Positions 24,249 through 25,658 of a stretch of 64,000 nucleotides of DNA are shown piece after piece; positions within the stretch are counted from its first letter, which is position 1, and each line of letters opens with the position of its first letter. Origin of the DNA: Methylobacter sp. Lineage in GTDB: Bacteria > Pseudomonadota > Gammaproteobacteria > Methylococcales > Methylomonadaceae. The notes beneath the pieces were generated by a model. That model worked only from the letters and a program-made list of their open reading frames with translations. It was not told the DNA's origin and searched no databases. A program made the translations under genes and the position numbers. Where the stretch lies: assembly GCA_004299305.1 (NCBI GenBank), contig SCPZ01000036.1:1-64000 (forward strand), written 5' to 3'.

Positions 24249-24298
24249 GATGTTCTCCTCTTATTTAGGACGTTGTTGTTAATGACATTATGGTTAAA

Positions 24299-24313
24299 GC
24301 AAGGGCTGTGCCA
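24299..24313 (-). promoter_or_regulatory. Sigma54 (-24/-12) promoter of nifHDK: TGGCACAGCCCTTGC
   Basis: Exact TGGCAC-N5-TTGC on the minus strand, about 50 bp before the nifH start. Confidence 0.93.
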
Positions 24314-24409
24314 TAAGCTAATATTGCATTTATCTTGTTGAATTATATTAGTTATTTTGATTGTAAGCGGGGGCGGATAACGTTGTGTTTCAAACATTTT
24401 GTAATGTTC

Positions 24410-24425
24410 TGTAGGCTTAGCAACA
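24410..24425 (-). promoter_or_regulatory. NifA upstream activator sequence TGT-N10-ACA for nifH
   Basis: TGTAGGCTTAGCAACA, about 97 bp upstream of the -24 element. Confidence 0.8.
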
Positions 24426-24491
24426 GTGCGGTTATTTATTGTTCTATCGTCCCTATGTGCTGTCTCTATTGAAAAATATATTGTGACGCCA

Positions 24492-24524
24492 AGACCTTCC
24501 AGGTTTTTAAAACCTGGAAGGTCT
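24492..24524. repeat. 33-bp perfect palindrome identical to 6615-6647
   Basis: AGACCTTCCAGGTTTTTAAAACCTGGAAGGTCT; lies between the two NifA-type sites. Confidence 0.9.
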
Positions 24525-24659
24525 AAATACGGTCGGAGTCTGAATAGTTACCCATTAAGTTAATGGCTACGTATATCCAGCGACTGGAGTGCCCGCCTAA
24601 AGTTACAGTCTATATATAGAGAGGCGACTGTGTGTAGATAGCTCAAACAACAGAGGGAT

Positions 24660-24675
24660 TGTTATAAACAGAACA
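24660..24675 (+). promoter_or_regulatory. NifA-type UAS TGT-N10-ACA upstream of the SIR2-like gene
   Basis: TGTTATAAACAGAACA, about 89 bp upstream of the GG-N10-GC element at 24764; a TGT-N11-ACA variant lies at 24633-24649. Confidence 0.65.
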
Positions 24676-24763
24676 AAACATTCACTGCATTTGGCAGTAA
24701 ATAAAACATTTTAACTGTATGTTAATCAGTCGGTTATGTTGTTTATTGGGAGTAGGGGGAAAC

Positions 24764-24778
24764 TGGATTAAATATTGC
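24764..24778 (+). promoter_or_regulatory. Sigma54-like promoter TGGATTAAATATTGC
   Basis: GG-N10-GC spacing with a good -12 (TTGC) and a partial -24 (TGGATT vs TGGCAC). Confidence 0.6.
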
Positions 24779-24818
24779 TTATATAGAAAGATACACATAC
24801 TTAATAATGGAGTTTGCA

Positions 24819-25658
24819 ATGTCTTCTACGATTTTTTCTGAAATACTAAACGGTTTGTACGAAAACAAAGTCGTGCCTTATCTAGGGCCGGGTGCGCTTT
24901 TCGATGCAACCAACAAACTTACCGGCGCGCCGATGCCTGCTGATAGTAATAGCTTGATTCTGGCTATGAATAATGGTGTTCCCATGGCGCCCAAGCTTAT
25001 GTATGAGTTTCCCAGGGCGGCTATGAACCAGGAACTCAAAAGAGGCAGGAATTTTTTGGGCCAGTTTCTTACTAAATTATATGGCGAAACCGAATGGACG
25101 CGCGCGGCGGTGCATGATTGGTTGGCGGAGTGGCGGCCTTTCTATGTCGTCGATATAAATCGCGACACCCAATTACAAGACAGCTATGCCGATGAGGAGC
25201 ATACGCTGATTGTCGGCATAGCAAGAATCAGCGCCAGCAACTTCCGGTTTAAAATCTATCACTATGACGGTAGCGATTATTTTGAAATACTCCAGGAACA
25301 GATTCACCCCAAATTCCCTATTTTGTTTAAGCCGATGGGGACGCCTAAACCGGAAGCCAACTACATCGCCTCGGATGCCGATTACGTCGATTACATTACC
25401 GAATTGATGGGAGGCTTTGCGATCCCTGATTTCCTCAAAGAGTACCGTAAGGGCAAGCAGTACCTGTTCATAGGGATGCCGTTAAATAGGGATTCGGAGC
25501 GTATGGTGATGAGCGACATCGTTTATGGCGCGGCAGAGCATAAGGGCTGGGTTTTAAACAAAAATCCGACCGATAAGGAAAAACGGTTTTGTGAAAAAAT
25601 AGGCTTGGAAATCCTTGATGCGGGTGTTGAAGATCTGCTGGAGGTCGTATTTAACTAA
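24819..25658 (+). CDS. SIR2-like fold protein, divergent from nifHDK
   Basis: ORF 24807..25658; start at MSSTIFSEI (24819), preceded by GGAG. SIR2-like motif series 'VVPYLGPGALFD', 'FYVVDINRDTQLQD', 'LFKPMGTPKPEANYIASDADYVDYI', 'YLFIGMPLNRDSE'. Confidence 0.75.
   Translation: MSSTIFSEILNGLYENKVVPYLGPGALFDATNKLTGAPMPADSNSLILAMNNGVPMAPKLMYEFPRAAMNQELKRGRNFLGQFLTKLYGETEWTRAAVHDWLAEWRPFYVVDINRDTQLQDSYADEEHTLIVGIARISASNFRFKIYHYDGSDYFEILQEQIHPKFPILFKPMGTPKPEANYIASDADYVDYITELMGGFAIPDFLKEYRKGKQYLFIGMPLNRDSERMVMSDIVYGAAEHKGWVLNKNPTDKEKRFCEKIGLEILDAGVEDLLEVVFN

Follow-up and report, generated by a model that had tools for sequence, protein, structure and literature searches.

The locus divergent from nifHDK

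The window, that is, the whole 64-kb stretch of Methylobacter DNA under analysis, contains the nitrogenase genes nifH, nifD, and nifK on the reverse strand and, pointing away from nifH, a gene for a SIR2-like protein of 279 amino acids. An earlier note on this DNA had placed this gene, the promoters, and the NifA sites from the sequence alone, and all of these coordinates were recovered by a motif scan and the list of open reading frames (ORFs). The features are as follows.

20114 to 21685, reverse strand: nifK (ORF; counterparts in the nif clusters of relatives)
21772 to 23253, reverse strand: nifD (ORF; counterparts in the nif clusters of relatives)
23367 to 24248, reverse strand: nifH, encoding the Fe protein, divergent neighbor of the SIR2-fold gene (ORF and homology search)
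24299 to 24313, reverse strand: σ54 promoter of nifH, TGGCACAGCCCTTGC (motif scan)
24410 to 24425, reverse strand: NifA site of nifH, TGT-N10-ACA (motif scan; near-identical sites in relatives)
24660 to 24675, forward strand: NifA-type upstream activator sequence (UAS) of the SIR2-fold gene, TGTTATAAACAGAACA, of the form TGT-N10-ACA (motif scan; conserved together with its spacing)
24764 to 24778, forward strand: σ54-type −24/−12 promoter of the SIR2-fold gene, TGGATTAAATATTGC (motif scan; conserved in orthologs)
24809 to 24812, forward strand: ribosome-binding site GGAG, 6 bp 5' of ATG 24819 (sequence)
24819 to 25658, forward strand: SIR2-like gene (PF13289) assigned to the pnfA family, 279 amino acids (ORF, Pfam, orthologs, AlphaFold2, and Foldseek)

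The ATG at 24819 is the start conserved among relatives; the start chosen by the ORF tool, ATG 24807, overlaps the GGAG that precedes 24819 and was rejected for this reason. NifH retains Arg101, in the motif GRGVIT, just as had been read from the sequence before. On its downstream side, the SIR2-fold gene is followed by a DUF2780 gene, whereas other nif-linked genes follow pnfA, the family's namesake, in Pseudomonas stutzeri A1501.

Between the two NifA sites lies a perfect palindrome, ACCTTCCAGGTTTTTAAAACCTGGAAGGT (24494 to 24522), whose half-site occurs genome-wide in 87 plus 86 copies, mostly paired in the same manner; it is a dispersed palindromic repeat and no part of the nif promoters. 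Elsewhere in the window (16770 to 17732, reverse strand), a protein of 320 amino acids is encoded that has no match in Pfam or NCBIfam. It adjoins an LRV protein in the nifHDK clusters of the family, at about 65 to 90% identity, is found at about 30% identity in other gammaproteobacteria, and represents another uncharacterized nif-linked protein.

Promoter elements and occurrence in diazotrophs

The end of the UAS of the SIR2-fold gene is separated from the start of the promoter by 89 bp. By itself, the window proves nothing about this arrangement, since the count of each single motif over the 64 kb is about that expected by chance (15 occurrences against 12.5 expected and 12 against 12.2 expected); motif statistics from a single window, not being significant on their own, were discarded as evidence, and conservation had to decide. 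Among 128 nonredundant upstream regions of clade I, the larger of two clades of homologs, 110 harbor both motifs at the right spacing, scored as NGG-N8-TTGC about 55 bp 5' of the ATG and TGT-N10-ACA about 101 bp above the promoter, compared with a mean of 0.2 in 30 rounds of dinucleotide shuffling of the upstream regions. Both elements were also present in all 41 genes examined that had no nifH in the fetched neighborhood (here, the −12 element was accepted as TTGC or CTGC), so that they serve the SIR2-fold gene rather than being a by-product of the intergenic region shared with nifH. Among the methanotroph relatives, TGGAT or TGGTT mostly takes the place of TGGCA at the −24 element, and this deviation is itself conserved. 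The pair is missing in three orthologs that lie on the same strand as the nifHDK cluster and downstream of it, and in three broken copies of nif-less genomes. Both nifA and rpoN were found in the organism's own genome. The suggestion that this gene has a σ54/NifA-type promoter architecture of its own is thus borne out by the orthologs.

The gene follows nifH closely across genomes. In a set of 201 genomes of its own family, it is present in 100 of 103 genomes with nifH and in 9 of 98 without it (Fisher P = 5e-42; the genomes being related, Fisher P values are descriptive). The corresponding counts are 28 of 33 versus 1 of 354 in the class sample and 15 of 40 versus 1 of 259 in the phylum sample. 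nifH was called at E ≤ 1e-20 in the family and at E ≤ 1e-60 in the phylum; in the class, a true nifH match was demanded, leaving out distant nifH-like proteins (near 1e-45 to 1e-49, with 35 to 41% identity). Four of the nine family carriers without nifH hold fragments of the gene only, one has part of nifH at the end of a contig, and the remaining four are draft genomes of 76 to 93% completeness. Hence, the restriction to diazotrophs holds, the few exceptions being mostly fragments or incomplete genomes. Identity across the family ranges from 69 to 95%, and the divergent orientation from nifHDK is conserved at 49 of 52 loci of the family and at all 32 beta- and gammaproteobacterial loci with nifH in view. 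Conversely, five of the 33 nifH-carrying genomes of the class sample lack the gene, as does Klebsiella pneumoniae (PMC2820453), and it is therefore dispensable for nitrogenase as such.

The four fragments are broken pnfA copies and are traces of nif loss; draT is still present in one of these genomes.

Relationship to pnfA and the predicted SIR2 fold

The locus closely resembles that of PST1325, named pnfA, in P. stutzeri A1501. PST1325 encodes a protein of about 31 kDa, belongs to a diazotroph-borne family with two subfamilies, and diverges from nifHDK; its promoter, with −24/−12 and TGT-N10-ACA elements, requires both NifA and RpoN for its activity (Yan et al. 2010; PMC2820453). Based on position, size, promoter, diazotroph-specific distribution, the two subfamilies, and shared Dechloromonas members, we consider the present gene the methanotroph ortholog of pnfA. 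Its function is therefore not as blank as the earlier note, which knew of no assigned function, had supposed: a mutant phenotype of pnfA was published in 2010. At 0.5% O2, the nonpolar, complemented mutant retained 23% of nitrogenase activity, while its nifH mRNA was unchanged. It behaved like the wild type under plain anaerobiosis but could not fix nitrogen with nitrate as the acceptor, from which the authors proposed a role in electron transfer or oxygen protection (PMC2820453). They likened the product to UspA/ETF and did not recognize a SIR2 fold (PMC2820453); a later table lists PST1325 as a SIR2 family protein (PMC11332353).

Similar SIR2-like genes from NifA/RpoN-linked nif operons or nif islands have been described elsewhere. 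A nifA double mutant of Rhodobacter capsulatus yielded no Rcc03262 (PMC6925177); ZMO1821 of Zymomonas mobilis, upregulated when N2 is being fixed, was conjectured to act as a deacetylase (PMC8600466; see also PMC8594446); and Msi351 of Mesorhizobium loti is a nif-linked SIR2 protein (PMC3538637). These three are likened to the present protein from their published descriptions. The SIR2 gene on Rhizobium etli p42d, the last gene of the operon nifB-fdx-nifZ-nifT-SIR2, differs in that its product belongs to clade II, shares about 27% identity, and carries WYD instead of NRD. Taken together, the comparative evidence and the published NifA/RpoN dependence of pnfA, along with Rcc03262, leave little doubt that the gene belongs to the pnfA family and to the nif regulon, the latter as had been proposed from the sequence.

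The protein matches Pfam SIR2_2 (PF13289) with an E value of 5.7e-7 and 30.2 bits, above the gathering score of 24.5, and an AlphaFold2 model built with 35 relatives reaches a pLDDT of 91. The best solved structures retrieved with this model by Foldseek are the NADases DSR2 and KomC (TM of about 0.6 to 0.66), and profile similarity to KomC is detectable. A search of a viral fold library gave no match below E = 0.001, and one of NCBIfam gave no meaningful match. A SIR2 fold, as the earlier note had claimed, is thus predicted with near certainty. Nevertheless, the protein shares only about 15% identity with KomC and DSR2, and it differs from them in lacking a conserved catalytic His, a sensor domain, and a defense context.

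To which extent the active site is retained can be read from 388 distinct homologs, which split into two clades: 371 sequences carry DxNRD and form clade I, and 17 carry DxWYD and form clade II. Sixteen polar residues are invariant in all 371 members of clade I (R66, E72, R77, H99, D112, N114, R115, and D116, as well as R143, K171, D186, D188, R210, R224, R228, and E254), and judging from this alignment, the SIR2 domain is under strong constraint. The SIR2 Asn corresponds to N114 throughout clade I and is replaced by Trp in all 17 members of clade II. The position of the catalytic His, H146 in KomC (the His mutated in PDB 9xvc), depends on the alignment: HMMER places it at D150, where His occurs in 3 of 388 sequences, while the hhalign register places it at H148, where His is found in 290 of the 371 clade I sequences and in 1 of the 17 from clade II. 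Given these different registers, a plain His-to-Asp change at the catalytic site was weakened to the statement that the catalytic His of canonical SIR2 proteins appears not to be conserved in either register, with H148 leaving some doubt for the protein studied here. Since neither column holds a conserved His, classical NAD consumption seems unlikely as the function shared by the family.

Five clade II genes of gammaproteobacteria are located in alpha-type nif clusters together with nifT, an aminotransferase gene, and a gene for a 2Fe-2S protein, and in Methylococcus sp. EFPC2, a clade II SIR2 gene resides on a plasmid. This suggests that a nif cluster was transferred.

The draT/draG neighborhood and the probable role of the protein in nitrogenase support

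DraT and DraG act on NifH via NAD-derived ADP-ribose. They are unrelated to PnfA-family proteins, although their genes are genomic neighbors of pnfA in many relatives. A draT gene (Pfam DRAT) is located between nifH and the SIR2-fold gene at 20 of the 32 beta- and gammaproteobacterial loci with nifH in view, always on the strand of the latter, and the genes next in line, beyond pnfA, are frequently draG, nifQ, and one for a hemerythrin. Among methanotrophs, a locus of one genus features the order draT-draG-pnfA, away from nifH, and a locus of a second genus the consecutive order pnfA-draT-draG; moreover, 47 of the 48 draT-containing genomes of the family hold the gene. The association is not a constant one, however. 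The earlier note had seen no draT or draG in the window, and a search of the whole genome likewise found neither; in addition, 54 of the 100 family carriers with nifH lack draT. The absence of both genes from its own genome implies that the SIR2-fold protein does not need DraT/DraG.

These data bear unequally on the explanations that can be offered for the gene. It could be part of the DraT/DraG system, sensing or binding NAD or ADP-ribosylated NifH and adjusting switch-off, as the shared strand, the clusters in two methanotroph genera, and the near-constant presence of the gene in draT-containing genomes would have it. Yet, the linkage is partly explained by the fact that draT is often found near nifH anyway, the gene persists without draT in many genomes, and P. 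stutzeri A1501, which lacks both draT and draG, nonetheless displays a strong pnfA mutant phenotype; we regard this explanation as improbable. An active SIR2 enzyme, i.e., an NAD hydrolase or a lysine deacetylase working on nitrogenase or its regulators in the way surmised for ZMO1821, would agree with the closeness of the fold to NADases, with the N2 fixation-dependent rise of ZMO1821 (PMC8600466), and with the invariance of N114 and the following D116 in clade I. It is hard to reconcile with the Asn-to-Trp replacement in clade II and with the variable His columns at D150 and H148, and it seems similarly improbable. The earlier proposal of an NAD or ADP-ribose link to the Fe protein finds indirect support: the SIR2 fold and the recurrent draT/draG adjacency keep it a reasonable hypothesis on circumstantial grounds, while the retention of the gene without DraT/DraG and the nonconserved His make a DraT-dependent or classical NAD-consuming function unlikely as a general one.

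Alternatively, the protein might protect nitrogenase from oxygen or redox stress or supply it with electrons, with the SIR2 fold as a mere scaffold. The defect of the P. stutzeri mutant, seen at 0.5% O2 and with nitrate though absent under plain anaerobiosis, fits such a role, as does the hemerythrin gene that immediately follows at many loci, whereas the roughly sixteen polar residues that are invariant across the SIR2 domain argue for a functional pocket, so that we deem it rather unlikely. That an antiphage defense gene came to lie beside nifH by chance is scarcely credible: its structural neighbors are defense NADases, but the gene has no PADLOC match, is well conserved within the family, and survives as degraded copies in nif-less genomes, and the near-perfect co-occurrence with nifH and the NifA-type promoter already contradict this origin.

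On balance, these observations are probably best explained by a diazotroph-specific, single-domain SIR2-fold protein that is activated by NifA and σ54 and sustains nitrogenase posttranscriptionally. Its own divergent promoter would ensure induction together with nitrogenase, as indicated by the comparison presented here and by experiments in relatives. The protein would then act after nif transcription, keeping nitrogenase activity high during respiration, as seen with the complemented mutant of P. stutzeri A1501, the one organism in which the phenotype was measured; by analogy, such posttranscriptional support is likely in the present organism. The most plausible mode of action would be that the conserved SIR2 pocket binds an NAD-like nucleotide or an ADP-ribosyl group. 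In this way, the protein would modulate or protect the Fe protein or the supply of electrons to it, and would not carry out classical deacetylation or NAD destruction. For nucleotide binding as such, we consider the chances evenly balanced, while a direct action on NifH is doubtful. Functional overlap with DraT/DraG may occur, with no dependence on them. It is tempting to speculate, as an outside chance, that a SIR2 domain has been repurposed in PnfA: its invariant pocket would sense ADP-ribosyl-NifH or the redox state of NAD, and a DraT-independent posttranslational control of nitrogenase would result. If true, this would account for on-off switching without draT and draG in P. stutzeri A1501, where nitrogenase switching has been reported despite the lack of both genes, and in this methanotroph.

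While the family name, the NifA/RpoN dependence, and the mutant phenotype were already known from P. stutzeri, the confidently predicted SIR2 fold, the apparently nonconserved catalytic His among residues that are otherwise invariant in 371 sequences, and the position of draT between nifH and the gene in many beta- and gammaproteobacteria, often with draG beyond, are new. The SIR2 fold, the altered catalytic site, and the draT-pnfA-hemerythrin-draG neighborhood lead to concrete, testable hypotheses for a nif-regulon gene that is widespread in proteobacterial diazotrophs and without which, in one species, about three quarters of the nitrogenase activity is lost. They are also relevant to cataloging the genes that a transferred nif cluster requires to be fully active.

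In many beta- and gammaproteobacteria (five loci and others), a gene with a hemerythrin domain lies directly 3' of pnfA on the same strand and is perhaps cotranscribed with it from the NifA promoter. Azoarcus olearius BH72 possesses a PnfA homolog (55%; PMC2820453). In this strain, azo0536 and dcrH1 lie downstream of draT and, unlike draT, are induced under N2 fixation, leading the authors to suspect a second promoter (PMC8467165). From the gene order, we infer that azo0536 is this PnfA homolog; like the pnfA genes above, it is expressed under nitrogen-fixing conditions, here adjoining dcrH1, but it is located 3' of draT and not directly beside nifH as in Methylobacter. The pnfA promoter of draT-pnfA loci would explain the rise of azo0536 and dcrH1 without draT and is a natural candidate for the second promoter.
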